Shown here: positions 14,898-22,593 of the stretch, in pieces
How positions within the stretch are numbered: position 1 is the stretch's first letter
Layout of the letters: each line of letters begins with the position of its first letter
Source: a virus
Reading direction: 5' to 3' (one strand)
Length of the DNA stretch: 39,805 nucleotides
Virus record (IMG/VR): IMGVR_UViG_3300005613_000170
Coordinates: 1-39,805 of that record
Translations under genes and position numbers: made by a program
The notes under the pieces: generated by a model
Databases searched by the model: none
What the model saw: the letters and a program-made list of their open reading frames with translations, nothing else
What the model was told of the DNA's origin: nothing

Positions 14898-15298
14898 TGT
14901 TTCCAAGGGACACGCTCAAAGGCTTCAGGTTGTCCTCGGCGATAGGGGCAAGACCAAGGCCAGAGCCCAGAATAACGATTAGCGGCGTGGTAATCGAGCG
15001 AAGGCCAAACCCTTGGATCGCACTGCACAACGGCTCTATCGTCGATGCTGCGGGCCTTGCGTCTTGGGAATCAACCATTCCCCAATACGAATGCGGATGC
15101 CGAGCGTTCTACGCAAAATACAAGGCCGACATCCCCCCCGATCTCACTACCCCCGAAGCGTTCTTTCGATGGGGAGTCAACCTACACAACGCAGTCAACC
15201 GCAAGCTCGGAAAGCCTGAGCTGACCATTGAAGAGGCTCTATCGATTTGGAGAAAAGACGATGGGTCAACCGAAGACGGCAGCGAGATTGTATCTTGA
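14897..15298 (+). CDS. Erv1/Alr-like protein, possible thiol oxidase
   Basis: 133-aa protein. The C-terminal half shows the helical signature of Erv1/Alr sulfhydryl oxidases: Cys pair (YECGC, C66 and C68), PPDLTTPEAFFRWGVNLHN and AVNRKLGKPELT, with the HNxVN FAD-site motif at 97-101. Known family members carry CxxC; here the pair is CxC and the following spacing is one residue shorter, so activity is uncertain. It directly follows, with a 1-base overlap, a gene for a protein with about 37 cysteines, suggesting a possible disulfide-forming helper. It could instead be a non-catalytic structural relative. Confidence 0.6.
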   Translation: MFPRDTLKGFRLSSAIGARPRPEPRITISGVVIERRPNPWIALHNGSIVDAAGLASWESTIPQYECGCRAFYAKYKADIPPDLTTPEAFFRWGVNLHNAVNRKLGKPELTIEEALSIWRKDDGSTEDGSEIVS

Positions 15299-16262
15299 GG
15301 AGCTTTGCGCGAAGTTCCCTGACCACTCGAACATAGGGCTAGCCAAACGGGCCAAAGCCGAGCGACCCGAGAGCTTTACTTCGGTCGACGGGGCTAGGAG
15401 TCTCATCCGGGTCATTCGAGGGGCATCGGGCAACAAACTTCGCAGCACAGCAACGCAAGCAAGGCCCAAGGGCAAAGCGGGGCAAGTCCCGAAGATGCCC
15501 CCATCCCTCGCAGAGCCCTGGGAACCCTTTATAGTTGACGCGAAGCGAATCGGGATACTTTCAGACATTCACATCCCCTACCACTCGGAGGTAGCGTTCA
15601 AGGCGGCAGTAGATGCGCTCAAGAAAGAATCGATCGATACCCTTTTGCTTAACGGCGATGTAGCGGATTTCTACCAAGTCTCCCGGCACCAACGCGATCC
15701 TAAGAACCGGCGTTTTTCGGTCGAGCTTCAAGCGGTAATCGAGGGGCTAGAATGGCTACGGCACGAATTCCGCAAAAAACGGATCATTTACAAGTACGGC
15801 AACCACGAAGAACGATGGGATCATTTCATTTGGAATCGGGCCCCTGAGATTTACGACTTAGCGAACGTCCGAATTGACGAACTGACGCAGTGCAAGCGTC
15901 TAGGGATCGAGACGGTTGGCGATCAAAGGCCAATCATGCTAGGCAAGCTTCCGGTCCTCCACGGGCACGAATTAGGCAAGTCGATTTTTAGCCCGGTCAA
16001 TCCGGCTAGGGGGGCATTCCTTCGGACGCATCATACTGTCTTGGTGGGGCATAGCCACCAAACTTCATCGCACGCAGACACGGACATGTGGCATTCGGAA
16101 ACTTTTATCTGGTCGACTGGATGCCTATGTGACTTAACGCCTGGATATGCTAAAATAAACAGGTGGAATCACGGGTTTGCTTTAGTAGAAGTATCCCAAG
16201 ACAAGACGTTTAACGTTCGGAATATGAGGATCGCTAAAAATGGCGAAGTTAGAACCGCGTAA
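15261..16262 (+). CDS. Calcineurin-like metallophosphoesterase
   Basis: 333-aa predicted dinuclear metal phosphoesterase. All five family motifs are present: SDIH (101-104), NGDVAD (131-136), GNHE (180-183), HGH (234-236) and GHSH (263-266). An N-terminal region of about 95 residues with an SNIGLAKRA motif and basic linker may bind nucleic acid (helix-turn-helix-like). The substrate is unknown; phage relatives include protein, nucleotide and DNA phosphoesterases. ATG at 15261 has GGAGAAAAG upstream and overlaps the Erv-like gene by 38 bases. It is set among tail and late genes, an unusual place for a nucleic-acid enzyme. Confidence 0.88.
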   Translation: MGQPKTAARLYLEELCAKFPDHSNIGLAKRAKAERPESFTSVDGARSLIRVIRGASGNKLRSTATQARPKGKAGQVPKMPPSLAEPWEPFIVDAKRIGILSDIHIPYHSEVAFKAAVDALKKESIDTLLLNGDVADFYQVSRHQRDPKNRRFSVELQAVIEGLEWLRHEFRKKRIIYKYGNHEERWDHFIWNRAPEIYDLANVRIDELTQCKRLGIETVGDQRPIMLGKLPVLHGHELGKSIFSPVNPARGAFLRTHHTVLVGHSHQTSSHADTDMWHSETFIWSTGCLCDLTPGYAKINRWNHGFALVEVSQDKTFNVRNMRIAKNGEVRTA

Positions 16263-16818
16263 AAAATCTAGTCCAACTCCCGATAGCATGATCCTCGGGC
16301 GAAAATTTGGGCGGCTAACCGTCGTGGAAAAGGTTCGCGTCAACAAGGCCTGGAGGTGGCGTTGCCAATGCGAATGCGGAAAGGAGACGAAAACGACGGC
16401 GCATAAACTCCAAACGGGATGGACTAGCAGTTGCGGTTGCTTTGCTGCGGATCAAGCCAGGAATCGACGCGGGGACAGGCGATACAACTGGAAGGGAGGC
16501 AAGGCGATTGACAACGGCTACATTCGTTTGCTTCAACCAGATCATTCGAGAGCTAATTGCAGAGGGTACGTTTACGAGCATTTGGTGATAATGGAAAACA
16601 GCCTCGGAAGGCCTTTGGTTGAAGGGGAAAACGTCCATCATATAAACGGCGATCGAGGGGACAATCGAATCGAAAATCTTGAGCTGTGGTCAACTAAGCA
16701 GCCAAAGGGACAGAGGATTTCAGACAAGGTTAGTTTCGCAATCGAAATCCTGGCCCAGTACGCATCGTCCAGCGACATCGAAAGGCTTGTTGATTCCATT
16801 CGCCTTAGGGGTGCGTAA
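16240..16818 (+). CDS. HNH homing-type endonuclease
   Basis: 192-aa free-standing endonuclease, probably a selfish element. The N-terminal half has a four-Cys zinc-binding block (CQCECG ... SCGC, residues about 46-68) typical of phage HNH/AP2-like proteins, and the C-terminal half the HNH core: YVYEHLVIMENSLGRPL, VHHINGDRGDNRIENLELW, with His-His and the two Asn residues in place. The start lies inside the phosphoesterase gene by 23 bases. Its mobile character suggests this spot is an insertion point between the late block and the next genes. Confidence 0.92.
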   Translation: MAKLEPRKKSSPTPDSMILGRKFGRLTVVEKVRVNKAWRWRCQCECGKETKTTAHKLQTGWTSSCGCFAADQARNRRGDRRYNWKGGKAIDNGYIRLLQPDHSRANCRGYVYEHLVIMENSLGRPLVEGENVHHINGDRGDNRIENLELWSTKQPKGQRISDKVSFAIEILAQYASSSDIERLVDSIRLRGA

Positions 16819-17419: not shown

Positions 17420-17446
17420 GACGCACAACGCGAACGACGCACAACG
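17420..17446 (+). repeat. Leader element GACGCACAACG, two copies
   Basis: GACGCACAACG occurs at 17420-17430 and again at 17436-17446, between promoter P1 and the first gene. Further copies lie at 18502-18512, inside the structured RNA region, and 30534-30544, just after the promoter at 30494. The first and last copies share 14 bases (GACGCACAACGCGA). The placement after transcription starts suggests an operator or an RNA-binding site, not a coding repeat. Confidence 0.65.
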
Positions 17447-17467
17447 CAAGACCGGGAACGATAGAAG

Positions 17468-17671
17468 ATGACGATCGCAGAAAAGCTCAACAACGCTCTT
17501 TCCAGTGGCAAAACGGTTTATGTTTCGACGTACACCAGAACAACCAAATACACTCGCAGGCACGCCGGAATGTTCTTTATGTCTTCCGACAGCCTCTGCG
17601 TAACCCACGGAAAGTCGAAGCTGCGATTGGCAATGGGCGACATCATGCTTGTCAAAATTCAGGTCGCCTAA
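17468..17671 (+). CDS. Small basic protein, unknown
   Basis: 67-aa protein, Lys/Arg/Thr-rich with a YVSTYTRTTKYTRRH stretch, then strands with SLCVTHGKSKLRLAMGD and MLVKIQV. The shape suggests a small beta-barrel or nucleic-acid-binding fold, but no family is recognised. It is the first gene after promoter P1 and its double GACGCACAACG leader, and its stop codon lies 3 bases before the hammerhead ribozyme, so the ribozyme would cut its message 44 bases beyond the stop. Confidence 0.65.
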   Translation: MTIAEKLNNALSSGKTVYVSTYTRTTKYTRRHAGMFFMSSDSLCVTHGKSKLRLAMGDIMLVKIQVA

Positions 17672-17674
17672 TCT

Positions 17675-17721
17675 AGCCCACTGACGAGCCGGGAACGGCG
17701 AAACCCTTCGGGGTCTGGGTT
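17675..17721 (+). ncRNA. Type I hammerhead ribozyme
   Basis: The full hammerhead core is present: CUGACGA at 17681-17687, GAA at 17700-17702, and the cleavage triplet GUC at 17713-17715. Stem I (AGCCCA 17675-17680 with UGGGUU 17716-17721, 6 bp with one G-U), stem II (GCCG/CGGC with a GGAA tetraloop, 17688-17699) and stem III (ACCC/GGGU with a UUCG tetraloop, 17703-17714) all form. Base pairs 10.1-11.1 (G-C) and 15.1-16.1 (A-U) match the consensus. Predicted cut after C17715, between two genes, leaving the downstream message with a 5'-hydroxyl and a 37-base leader. Stem I is open-ended, so type I. Confidence 0.93.
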
Positions 17722-17752
17722 TACTTCAACACACTAACGGAGATGATGAGAG

Positions 17753-18127
17753 ATGAAAACAGCAACCGAAATCACAAGGCAATCACTAGACGCAGGTAAG
17801 ATCGTACACACTGGCTGGACTCCAAACCGAGACGCAGCGGACCAGTGCGGGGTAAACGTGATAGATTATTTCGATGTCTCTGGTAAATTTCTCGGGCCAG
17901 ACGAAAACGGAGTAGAGCCAACATTTCAGGCAGAGGTCGACTACAGCACACTGGCCGAAAAGGTTCTTGAGTACCGCTTCGCAACCGACAGCGAGCAAGG
18001 CTCAATCATGGCTCGCGATTTTACGGAAGCTAAGCAAATGCTTTGCGACAAGATAGACGATACCGATGGCGGCGAGGGATGGGTCGAGGACCAAGACGGC
18101 TATCGCTTTACCTATGCGGCAGTCTAG
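17753..18127 (+). CDS. Acidic protein downstream of the ribozyme
   Basis: 124-aa protein with a mixed alpha/beta pattern: ITRQSLDAGKIVHTGWTP, CGVNVIDYFDVSGKFLGPD, then FTEAKQMLCDKIDDTDGG and a final WVEDQDGYRFTYA strand. No family recognised. ATG at 17753 has CGGAGATGATGAG upstream, an adequate ribosome site retained after ribozyme cleavage. The 5'-hydroxyl end made by the ribozyme would precede this gene, which could change message stability. Confidence 0.7.
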   Translation: MKTATEITRQSLDAGKIVHTGWTPNRDAADQCGVNVIDYFDVSGKFLGPDENGVEPTFQAEVDYSTLAEKVLEYRFATDSEQGSIMARDFTEAKQMLCDKIDDTDGGEGWVEDQDGYRFTYAAV

Positions 18128-18133
18128 CCTTCA

Positions 18134-18203
18134 GCCTCCGAAGTTATTGCGGTGGAACACGCTAGCACGCTAGCGGGCGCAGGTTCAAATCCTGCCGGGG
18201 GCT
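18134..18203 (+). ncRNA. tRNA-like cloverleaf A (no normal anticodon loop)
   Basis: Acceptor-like stem GCCTCCG (18134-18140) with CGGGGGC (18196-18202), 7 bp with one G-U; T-arm GCAGG-TTCAAAT-CCTGC (18179-18195) with a consensus T-loop; D-like arm GTT/AAC around a 10-base loop with GG. In place of an anticodon arm there is a perfect hairpin CGCTAG-CACG-CTAGCG (18160-18175): a 5-bp stem would leave a 6-base loop, a 6-bp stem a tetraloop, and no U33 is present. No CCA is encoded. It looks like a tRNA-derived RNA that cannot decode, or a decayed tRNA. Confidence 0.6.
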
Positions 18204-18313
18204 CTGGATTTTACTAGCTGACCGGGTTCGATATTTCGACTGAGTGGAACACTCAAGCCCGCTTAGGCTTTCATTGGCCCGCGATCGAATCGCAGAGCAT
18301 AAGGAGAGACAAC

Positions 18314-18325
18314 ATGAAAAACTAA
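18314..18325 (+). other. Three-codon micro-ORF with strong ribosome site
   Basis: AAGGAG at 18301-18306 lies 7 bases before ATG AAA AAC TAA (Met-Lys-Asn-stop). The spacing is ideal for initiation, yet the peptide has only three residues. It sits inside the structured RNA region between hairpins. It may be a ribosome-loading or leader element, or chance; function unknown. Confidence 0.35.
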
Positions 18326-18388
18326 CCGCAAGTTGGGCCGGGCTGGAGGCGAAACCAGCAAGGCGGCAACAGCCCCACTAAGTTGCGA

Positions 18389-18452
18389 GGATCGGATACC
18401 TATTAAGTATTACCCTTTTCACCCAGTAGCAGGTGAGACCCCTGCCCGATCC
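18389..18452 (+). ncRNA. Cloverleaf-like element B
   Basis: GGATCGG (18389-18395) pairs perfectly with CCGATCC (18446-18452). Directly inside the 3' strand is a 5-bp T-arm-like hairpin GCAGG-TGAGACC-CCTGC (18429-18445), with the 5/7/5 geometry of a tRNA T-arm but not its consensus loop. ATAC/GTAT (18396-18410) forms a D-like arm, and only a 3-bp arm remains for the middle. The element is 64 bases long, followed by TTTT and then element C. Shape is tRNA-like but sequence is not, so it is either a degenerate tRNA or part of a larger RNA. Confidence 0.45.
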
Positions 18453-18456
18453 TTTT

Positions 18457-18588
18457 GGACTGCAGCCAATAGGGGCTAGCGTGCAAGATCCTCGCAGAGG
18501 TGACGCACAACGACGCTAAAAGGCTTGCTCGGGGGTGTTTCGTTGACACCCGCAGCAAGCCAAGACGGTTCGATTCCGTCGCAGTCCT
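18457..18588 (+). ncRNA. Giant tRNA-like element C
   Basis: The top half is a perfect tRNA: acceptor GGACTGC (18457-18463) with GCAGTCC (18581-18587), T-arm GACGG-TTCGATT-CCGTC (18564-18580). The lower half is replaced by three arms: AGCC/GGCT (18464-18477); a 5-bp AGCGT/ACGCT stem (18478-18482 with 18513-18517) closing a 30-base loop that itself can fold (CCTC-GCA-GAGG); and a long arm GGCTTGCT/AGCAAGCC (18522-18529 with 18554-18561) topped by GGGTGT/ACACCC. Total about 131 bases. TTTT follows. It resembles a class II tRNA with an oversized anticodon loop and variable arm, or a tmRNA-like mimic. Confidence 0.6.
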
Positions 18589-18616
18589 TTTACCTTTTTC
18601 CTTTTACTTGGAGCGA

Positions 18617-20149: not shown

Positions 20150-20667
20150 GCTATGTAGAAAAGTTTTGGCGTGACGCGAAGGTGGCGGATGTTGCGCGAG
20201 TGATGGAAGGGGAGACGGTTAAGGCGAGGTTTAGCGATGATGCCAGCGGCGACTGGAAATATCGCGCTCTTATTGGATGGAGTCGTGGTGGTGAGTCAGA
20301 CGAATTCGTTTGGGCGTCTACTGGTTTGATTTACCATCGTTACTGCCAAGTCTACGATCCCCCGCAATGGTACTTGGACAAGCCCGATCCGGGCGAAGGG
20401 TACAGGCTGCTTGAGAAGTTTCCTGATGAACCGGTACAGGGCGGTGATTTCATTCGCGGATTTGGTGGCTGGATCGAGTTAGCTAACGGGTGTAATCCCA
20501 AGCAAGGCGAAGGCATCTGGTACCGTCGCAAGATCGATCAGCCGAAGCCCGAGCCGAAGCACTACGTTTTGCAGGTCGGCGATACGGTCGAGCTTCCCGA
20601 CAAGGCGATAGTCGAGTGGCTAGAAAAAGGCGTGTTCATATTGCGTGAGTATCTTCGGTCTGCTTGA
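20146..20667 (+). CDS. Unknown 173-aa protein
   Basis: Acidic protein with repeated tyrosine/tryptophan-rich segments (FVWASTGLIYHRYCQVYDPP and GEGIWYRRKIDQPKP), followed by a strand LQVGDTVELPDKAIVEWLE that looks like a small domain end. No family recognised. The phrase PGEGYRLLEKFPDEPVQ is similar to small accessory proteins in other phages, seen as 'e..yr.lev.ge.i..GD', but this gives no function. Confidence 0.65.
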   Translation: MSYVEKFWRDAKVADVARVMEGETVKARFSDDASGDWKYRALIGWSRGGESDEFVWASTGLIYHRYCQVYDPPQWYLDKPDPGEGYRLLEKFPDEPVQGGDFIRGFGGWIELANGCNPKQGEGIWYRRKIDQPKPEPKHYVLQVGDTVELPDKAIVEWLEKGVFILREYLRSA

Positions 20668-20773
20668 CCCGTGGCGTCTGTTGGCCACAAAAAAGCGGTG
20701 AGCGGTACGAGCCGGGAATCATCCAGCCCAATCGACCGAAGCCAAGTCAGCTGGTACAGGCTGAGGCTAGCTA

Positions 20774-20851
20774 TCCGGCGTGGTGTAATGGCAACACAAC
20801 CTGCCCTCGTAGGGATCACAGGTCTTGCGGGTTCGATTCCCGTCGTCGGAT
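20774..20851 (+). tRNA. tRNA-like gene with enlarged anticodon loop
   Basis: Acceptor TCCGGCG (20774-20780) with CGTCGGA (20844-20850), 7 bp with one G-U; D-arm GTGT-AATGGCA-ACAC (20783-20797) with GG; T-arm GCGGG-TTCGATT-CCCGT (20827-20843) with consensus loop. The anticodon stem is a perfect 5 bp, ACCTG (20799-20803) with CAGGT (20819-20823), but its loop is 15 bases, not 7. The loop contains CCC-TCGTA-GGG; if TCGTA is the working loop the anticodon could be CGT (Thr). No CCA encoded. Either a real but unusual tRNA or a non-decoding one. Confidence 0.65.
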
Positions 20852-20887
20852 TTGTTTTGGGTTTGGTGCTTTTAGGAGGCTAGGAAG

Positions 20888-21109
20888 ATGGAAAAGATCA
20901 ACGACGGCGGGCCAGCGTTCCCATGCGTGGACGCGAGAGGGTTTGTTTCGACCGGCATGACCCTTCGCGATTGGTTCGCAGGGCAAGCATTGGCGGGGAT
21001 TATGGCTAATCCGAAAATGCTGCTTGCGATCGAAAGCATGAAGCAAGACCCGGCCACTTGCGCGTATGATGTCGCAAGTTTTATGATGGCGGAAAGGGAC
21101 GAGCGATGA
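20888..21109 (+). CDS. Small conserved phage protein (GGPAFP type)
   Basis: 73-aa protein of a type common in phages: starts with INDGGPAFPC, then a STGMTLRDWFAGQALAG segment. The short TLRDWFA segment is typical. Function unknown; it usually lies near recombination genes, as here. TTAGGAGGC 8-16 bases upstream is a strong ribosome site. The end overlaps the nuclease gene by 4 bases. Confidence 0.8.
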   Translation: MEKINDGGPAFPCVDARGFVSTGMTLRDWFAGQALAGIMANPKMLLAIESMKQDPATCAYDVASFMMAERDER

Positions 21110-21948
21110 GTAACTACCACGCAATCAAGGCCCTCTCGAATTCGTCGCTATCGGTCCTCAATCGCTCCCCGGCTGAGTTCTACAAGCGATTCGTGACGGG
21201 CGAAATGAAGGGCCAGGAAACCGACGCGATGCTCTTGGGCTCGGCGGTTCACATGCTGGCCCTAGAGCCGGAAAGGTTCGATGCGGAGTATGTTGTGCTC
21301 GATGGGCCGATCAATCCGACGACCAGGAAACCCTATGGGCGTGACACAAAGGCATTTGAAAGGTGGATGCTCGATCAGTTAGGGGCAGGCAACACTAACG
21401 GAATCGGGAGTCGCAAGATCCTCATTCGCGAAGAGTTCGCCGACTCCCTAGCAATCGCCAAGGCTTTCCAGTCCCATCCGACGATCGCGGCTATCATGGC
21501 ATCGAGGGCGGAGAAGCTTTTCGAGTCGGAATACGCGATGGAGTACGAAGGGTCTTGCAACTTTCGAGTCGATCTTAAATGCAAGATCGATTTTGTCTGC
21601 CCATCGGAGCGGCTGATTATCGACCTGAAAACATCGCACGAGCCTAGCCCCTATACTTGGAGTTGGCACGCCGAAGACTTCGGCTACCACAGGCAAGCGG
21701 CGATCTACAGCGACGCGATGGAGGCCAAGTACGGCGAACCGTTTCGATTCTATTTCGGGGTGGTTCGCTCGAAACAACCACACGAAGCGGCGGTTTACGA
21801 ACTGGATGCTGAGTCGATCAATCGAGGGCGATCGGAGTACGAAGCCCTCATCGAAGAGTACATCGATCGCAAGGCCGAGAACAATTGGCTAAGCGAATGG
21901 CAGCGAGGTGTTTTTCCAATCAATGTTCCAGCCAGGAGGCGAAAGTAA
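21106..21948 (+). CDS. RecE-like PDDEXK exonuclease
   Basis: 280-aa 5'-3' exonuclease partner of RecT. PD-(D/E)xK residues: D162 in KCKIDFVC, D173 and K175 in IIDLKTS, and Q197 in the YHRQAAIY helix. The N-terminal NSSLSVLNRSPAEFYKRF and GSAVHMLALEP segments are typical of exonuclease VIII-like phage proteins (PF12684). Chews a DNA end to leave a 3' single strand for annealing. Directly followed by the recT-like gene. Confidence 0.9.
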   Translation: MSNYHAIKALSNSSLSVLNRSPAEFYKRFVTGEMKGQETDAMLLGSAVHMLALEPERFDAEYVVLDGPINPTTRKPYGRDTKAFERWMLDQLGAGNTNGIGSRKILIREEFADSLAIAKAFQSHPTIAAIMASRAEKLFESEYAMEYEGSCNFRVDLKCKIDFVCPSERLIIDLKTSHEPSPYTWSWHAEDFGYHRQAAIYSDAMEAKYGEPFRFYFGVVRSKQPHEAAVYELDAESINRGRSEYEALIEEYIDRKAENNWLSEWQRGVFPINVPARRRK

Positions 21949-22593
21949 ATGAGTACTGATTTAACGACCGATATTAAGCCCGAGACGACGCAAGTCATCG
22001 AGGCAGGATTCAGCAGTTCCGATGGCTTTGCGTTGGCTCAGAGGGTTGCTACAGCCCTAAGCAAGTCGACGTTGATACCGAAGGACTACCAGAACAATCT
22101 ACCGAATTGCCTAGTGGCCTTGAACATGGCTCAGCGGCTCGATGCTGACCCGCTTATGGTGATGCAGAACCTATATGTGGTTCACGGTCGACCTGCCTGG
22201 TCGAGTCAATTCCTGATCGCGACGGCCAACAAGTCGGGCAAGTTTAGCCCGCTACGCTATCGCTTCACGGGCACGAAAGGCAAGGACGACTTTGGGTGCG
22301 TTTGCTCGGCGGTCGAACGCGAAACGGGCGAAGTCCTCGAAGGGACCGAGATTACAATCGGCATGGCAAAGGCCGAAGGCTGGCACGGCAAGAACGGCTC
22401 GAAGTGGCAGACGATGCCAGAGCAAATGTTGCGGTACAGGGCAGCGGCTTTCTTTGTGCGTTGCTACGCTCCCGAATTGTCGCTAGGTCTTTCGACCCGC
22501 GAAGAGGTCGACGACATTGTGGACGGCGAAGTTGTTTCGCGGTCGACCGGCAAATTGACGGTTAAGGAAAATAAGGAGGTGCAAGGTGAGTAA
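21949..22593 (+). CDS. recT: RecT family single-strand annealing protein
   Basis: 214-aa annealing protein. Family signature is strong: LVALNMAQRLDADPLMVMQN, LYVVHGRPAWSSQFLIATAN, then SGKFSPLRYRF, EGWHGKNGSKWQTMPEQM and LRYRAAAFFVRCYAPELSLG. It begins one base after the nuclease stop codon, forming a RecE/RecT-type pair that anneals strands during replication and recombination and might circularise or concatenate the genome. Confidence 0.93.
   Translation: MSTDLTTDIKPETTQVIEAGFSSSDGFALAQRVATALSKSTLIPKDYQNNLPNCLVALNMAQRLDADPLMVMQNLYVVHGRPAWSSQFLIATANKSGKFSPLRYRFTGTKGKDDFGCVCSAVERETGEVLEGTEITIGMAKAEGWHGKNGSKWQTMPEQMLRYRAAAFFVRCYAPELSLGLSTREEVDDIVDGEVVSRSTGKLTVKENKEVQGE

Follow-up and report, generated by a model that had tools for sequence, protein, structure and literature searches.

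Hammerhead ribozymes have been found in phage genomes between small genes, where they were proposed to cut long transcripts into gene-length mRNAs, and the genes that flank them are not constant (Perreault et al. 2011, PMC3088659). What hammerheads do in prokaryotes has been described as an open question (PMC6155905). Another class of small self-cleaving phage RNA, the theta ribozymes, acts beside phage tRNAs (PMC10879173).

We analysed a stretch of 39,805 nt (IMG/VR record IMGVR_UViG_3300005613_000170, positions 1 to 39,805), here called the window, which comes from a tailed phage with all of its genes on one strand. No annotated phage relatives were found at the DNA level, and the window terminase is only ~31% identical to those of named phages. 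A first-pass annotation had placed a type I hammerhead at 17675-17721 (+ strand, as are its parts, the leader and the protein genes below), and its coordinates, letters, invariant core, stems, tetraloops and GUC triplet were all exact on inspection. The element begins with the 5' strand of stem I, AGCCCA (17675-17680), and ends with the partner strand UGGGUU (17716-17721), which together form 6 bp, five of them Watson-Crick pairs and one G-U. Between these strands lie the core CUGACGA (17681-17687; C3 to A9, with G8 at 17686), stem-loop II, GCCG-GGAA-CGGC, with a GGAA loop (17688-17699), the GAA with G12 at 17700 (17700-17702), and stem-loop III, ACCC-UUCG-GGGU, with a UUCG loop (17703-17714), which in relatives also occurs as a 5-bp variant with other loops. 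The stems are 6, 4 and 4 bp long; II and III are closed and I is open, giving a type I element. Hammerheads are recognised by C3 U4 G5 A6 N7 G8 A9, G12 A13 A14, the A15.1-U16.1 pair and H17 (PMC3088659), and the window element agrees at every position, with C as H17. By the hammerhead rule GUC|, cleavage is predicted between C17 (17715) and 17716.

As the first-pass annotation had it, the element is intergenic, with the predicted cut 44 nt past the TAA (17669-17671) of a small upstream ORF of 67 aa (17468-17671). A 107-aa frame that overlaps this gene and ends at TAG 17676 is non-coding by eye. Most relatives have a stop codon, TAA or TAG, embedded in stem I at -7/-8; a coupling of cleavage to termination through this stop was set aside and remains an idea, the likely real stop of the window being at -12. 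On the other side of the predicted cut, a leader (17716-17752) homologous to that of relatives would carry a 5'-OH and contains the Shine-Dalgarno GGAG (17739-17742). The distance from the predicted cut to the ATG at 17753 is 37 nt, which fits the placement of transcript-dicing phage hammerheads. This ATG opens a 124-aa ORF (17753-18127), an accessory cassette of family f11, whose product had no Pfam or PHROG match. Two further elements were seen nearby: an HNH endonuclease gene (16240-16818), a candidate homing-type element just 5' of the variable region, and a direct repeat, GACGCACAACGC/A, present twice ahead of the 67-aa gene, at 17420-17431 and 17436-17447 with a spacing of 16 nt, and once in the tRNA-like region, at 18502-18513.

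The earlier judgement that a chance match is very unlikely was borne out. The full hammerhead pattern matched once in the window and in 0 of 100 shuffles; a looser definition gave an expectation of 0.005 per window, with the chance of the actual element far lower, and a window-like definition yielded 0 matches in 48 million random strand-positions. Energy alone is no proof, because the whole-fold z-score against shuffles is unremarkable (-0.69), and folding stronger than that of shuffles was not seen for the window element. The native hammerhead fold, at -17.6 kcal/mol, lies 0.3 kcal/mol off the minimum, which belongs to an alternative at -17.9. Natural hammerheads are sped by a tertiary contact between loop II and stem I; a search, by Watson-Crick pairing only, for pseudoknots between loop II and either flank (5' or 3') gave no excess over re-dealt flanks.

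The first-pass annotation had also held that lack of a hit to the Rfam covariance model would speak against a hammerhead, and taken formally the result goes against it: neither hammerhead family, RF00163 or RF02275, matched at gathering score in the window, the best score being 18.8 bits with RF02275 against a cut-off of 52. This test is unsuitable as evidence against a hammerhead, because the cut-offs leave almost every other phage type I copy undetected. Across 14 array-bearing loci they recover 2 hammerheads (L016, L027, L113, L061 and L110 are among those poorly detected), and public annotation consequently undercounts phage type I hammerheads. Our covariance model R1, built from 45 diverse phage/viral hammerheads, scored the window element at 54.2 bits (E 6e-15), with no other convincing match in the window; the score is not fully independent, since one of the sequences behind R1, L005, closely resembles the window copy (94% identity over 17676-17751).

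A first scan of viral contigs, whose pattern combined the core with stem II and a portion of stem III, gave 38 loci and a looser one at least 119, which combine to at least 155 distinct complete hammerheads in at least 97 loci. A strict scan of named-host genomes found no match, and a looser scan of genomes found two MAG loci with candidate hammerheads. Because stem I was left out of the scan pattern, its pairing is a separate test: stem I reached at least 5 bp in 91% of the raw scan matches listed, compared with 11% when strands were re-dealt among loci. Over all three stems, stem II included, the 45 diverse sequences showed 159 double-change cells against 34 in shuffled and 12-29 in slid controls. 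Placement was assessed for the 140 viral hammerheads with enough flank among the matches listed, 67% of which had a Shine-Dalgarno and ATG 8-60 nt past the cut, compared with 10.5% of random same-strand positions; on the antisense strand a start followed the element in 0 of 138 among the matches listed. The stop of an ORF of at least 60 aa lay at -20 to +1 of the core in 76% of the listed hammerheads and 7% of random positions, although part of the 76% stems from a +1 class inflated by the UGA inside the core.

Some phage records contain 3-8 hammerheads each, often in successive gaps, and these arrays, together with the placement, fit the proposal that such ribozymes dice phage transcripts (Perreault et al. 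2011, PMC3088659). In one locus (L075, 3517-5251) six hammerheads, three of type II by Rfam and three of type I, occupy successive small gaps within 1.7 kb, and their A/T-rich leaders are near-identical. In keeping with the first-pass remark that hammerheads are known in phage genomes, the putative ribozyme of the window belongs to this intergenic kind (PMC3088659), with which it shares the consensus core, a site between small phage genes and variable flanking genes.

Of the first-scan loci, about 30 come from relatives of the window phage; where the genes are present, identities are 67% for the portal, 74% for the major head protein and 57-77% for the metallophosphoesterase. Some loci were assigned to this group by common ribozyme, leader and flanking genes only, and the set includes several near-duplicate loci (L001/L036, L007/L020) and many fragmentary records. 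One locus (L032) was dropped, having no neighbouring genes in common. In these ~30 phages the ribozyme, a 30-38-nt leader and a Shine-Dalgarno divide the structural genes from those for recombination and replication, with the ribozyme 0.6-1.6 kb past the metallophosphoesterase gene and the recombination genes downstream. The window has the same order, from the metallophosphoesterase gene (15228-16262; PHROG 221), the last conserved marker on the structural side, to genes for an exonuclease VIII-like protein (21106-21948; PHROG 412, Pfam DUF3799) and a RecT-like annealing protein (21949-22593; PHROG 561, E 1.2e-81). Model R1 matched exactly once in 24 of 25 related records, the exception (L023) adding a second, degenerate match. 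Among the sequences of this group, pair 2 of stem I is A-U in 17 and C-G in 6, and 2 show a mismatched intermediate. Anatomy, covariation and ~30 orthologues thus support well the first-pass reading of a type I hammerhead with a predicted intergenic cut that would leave a 5'-OH leader for the next gene, and the type I hammerhead noted at 17675-17721 is confirmed in the sequence.

The genes around this fixed element change. In 28 loci the genes directly behind the ribozyme fell into 15 unrelated small-gene families, their start codons lying 29-38 nt past the cut; the cassette proteins had no significant Pfam match and one weak PHROG match, to a family without known function. When 300 nt on each side were compared, at the ribozyme joint only, 50 phage pairs shared a flank: 25 on the upstream side only, 21 on the downstream side only and 4 on both. 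Phage mosaic breakpoints often lie at gene ends anyway. In L037 the upstream flank is 99% identical to that of L012 and the downstream flank 95% identical to that of L001, which places the junction within the ribozyme-leader. In L017 the 5' strand of stem I, C-C-C-A, faces the 3' strand U-U-G-G, the upstream side is like L002 and the downstream gene like that of L021; this combination fits a crossover inside the putative ribozyme.

A leader profile found one copy only in the window itself and extra copies 200-490 nt downstream in L004, L007/L020, L008, L011, L013, L026, L033, L034 and L035, as well as one upstream of the ribozyme in L006. The extra copies precede further small genes, and eight of them start with a core-less hammerhead 3' end (GGGGTC|TTGG, GCGGTC|TTGG and similar). 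Seven families (f01, f02, f03, f04, f07, f10 and f11) occur both behind an intact ribozyme and behind leader copies; the f11 member in L026, similar to the window gene in its C-terminal part, stands behind a remnant leader. In a reverse check the search began from two cassette proteins, with the ribozyme unused. All 11 relatives of f01 had an intact, broken or partial ribozyme or leader upstream, whereas for f07 this held in the closer relatives only. In two loci, L243 and L263, the hammerhead ~70 nt upstream of the cassette gene is broken: both show the core change CTAACCA, and their stem I strands are unpaired. Taken together, the comparative data establish, at the level of sequence, a complete hammerhead under structural selection, held at a fixed place before a Shine-Dalgarno leader while genes are exchanged on both sides.

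The ribozyme likely cleaves the message in which it lies, and we consider it probable that a functional hammerhead splits the transcript ahead of an accessory array while the DNA of ribozyme and leader acts as the joint for cassette exchange. Cleavage would divide a long message between the structural module and the downstream small accessory genes, giving a downstream product with a 5'-OH, the 37-nt leader and a Shine-Dalgarno, and an upstream product with a structured end bearing a 2',3'-cyclic phosphate. A 5'-OH end resists 5'-monophosphate-dependent decay, and a folded end that carries a 2',3'-cyclic phosphate is protected from 3' exonucleases; a possible benefit of the cut is to decouple stability and expression between the two pieces of the transcript. 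As DNA, ribozyme plus leader may provide a constant joint for exchange of small-gene cassettes, and the ExoVIII/RecT pair (21106-22593) could plausibly anneal through the ~85 nt of ribozyme-leader homology. A more specific version is quite conceivable, if still tentative: the ribozyme-leader would be the exchange joint of an integron-like small-gene array, any incoming gene would automatically gain its own ribosome-binding site on an insulated mRNA with a 5'-OH end, and one active copy per array would be kept by selection.

The main alternative is that the element, a ribozyme of the type already known in phages, does no more than process mRNA and that the turnover around it is ordinary mosaicism with no connection to it. 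The phages with 3-8 hammerheads in successive gaps agree with such an account, as does the 2011 proposal of transcript dicing between genes that are not constant (PMC3088659). Against it stand the remnant leaders ahead of additional cassettes and the families that occur in both settings, since these are what recombination through the ribozyme-leader would leave; we regard it as possible but somewhat doubtful. It is unlikely that the ribozyme is maintained for its DNA homology only, as a relic whose RNA cleavage is no longer of consequence. Remnants and broken copies do exist and the Rfam score is low, but the intact set retains an invariant core and covarying stems, and one intact copy is kept per record. 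Moreover, where the core is broken, pairing in stem I has been lost as well, which would be expected after selection on the RNA had ceased.

The first-pass annotation had further noted a tRNA-like cluster 412 bases past the ribozyme and hinted at a link. The distance is correct: a tRNA-like gene (18134-18203; Rfam tRNA, 33.5 bits) begins there, with the 124-aa gene between. Its anticodon arm is a perfect 7-bp hairpin, CGCTAGC-AC-GCTAGCG, that has no normal anticodon loop. At 18390-18590 are two further tandem tRNA-like folds, possibly degenerate tRNAs or decoys, the first with the acceptor GGATCGG/CCGATCC and a T-arm-like GCAGG-TGAGACC-CCTGC, the second with the acceptor GGACTGC/GCAGTCC, a canonical T arm, a long variable arm and an anticodon loop of ~30 nt. 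In L001, L008, L011, L013, L017, L025, L026, L035 and L037 the ends of the first of these folds are conserved and its middle varies. An untypable ARAGORN tRNA (anticodon 'ct', 20773-20852) overlaps the ORF 20664-20960 and is probably spurious. A ribozyme that served the cluster at 18134-18600 by processing its tRNAs would resemble the theta ribozymes of gut phages (PMC10879173) in being a small self-cleaving RNA in a region with tandem tRNA-like structures. Theta ribozymes have an HDV-like fold and cut at tRNA 3' ends (PMC10879173), whereas the window fold is a hammerhead at a gene-gene joint with no tRNA at the cut. The 124-aa gene intervenes, no tRNA gene adjoins the ribozyme in any of 40 relatives and hammerhead loci, seven longer regions contain only one, 5 kb from the ribozyme, and the conserved tRNA-like stretch of the relatives is 3.5-5.5 kb away. 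The hinted link is thus not supported: since relatives have no tRNA gene beside the ribozyme, the cluster is a neighbour and not the reason for it, and a tRNA-processing role is very improbable. Type I hammerheads are typical of eukaryotic retroelements, but a retrozyme, Penelope-like or circular-RNA remnant is scarcely credible for an element that is the sole hammerhead of the window and holds a position conserved in related phages, with no reverse transcriptase among the window genes scanned.

The reading that we prefer, a functional hammerhead whose DNA doubles as an exchange joint, has partial parallels in other systems. T4-type phages reportedly carry mobile regulatory cassettes (PeSL; Arbiol et al. 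2010, cited in PMC4177764) made of early promoters with stem-loops, likewise short stretches of repeated regulatory DNA that are set between small phage genes and go along with gene shuffling; the repeated unit here is instead a predicted self-cleaving ribozyme with its leader. Integron arrays stack small genes without known function behind a fixed site, with related repeats between them, and by analogy the present small genes also stand behind a fixed site and are separated by related repeats. In contrast to integrons, the repeats here are leader and ribozyme remnants, exchange is likely to be homologous rather than site-specific, and no integron integrase was seen among the window genes scanned. 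Relative to the set of Perreault et al. 2011, the differences are one orthologous copy in ~30 phages at the structural/replication junction, a conserved leader, partial copies before further cassettes, and a window copy that Rfam models miss. As far as the literature that we found shows, this cassette-joint setting has not been described.

With one copy at a fixed place, genes that change on both sides and broken natural controls, the role of a prokaryotic hammerhead becomes testable, and the broken hammerheads of L243 and L263 are useful as natural inactive controls. Small accessory genes are a usual source of the anti-host and counter-defence proteins of phages. The ribozyme-leader pair offers a search tag for hidden genes of this kind, one that is invisible to standard Rfam annotation.
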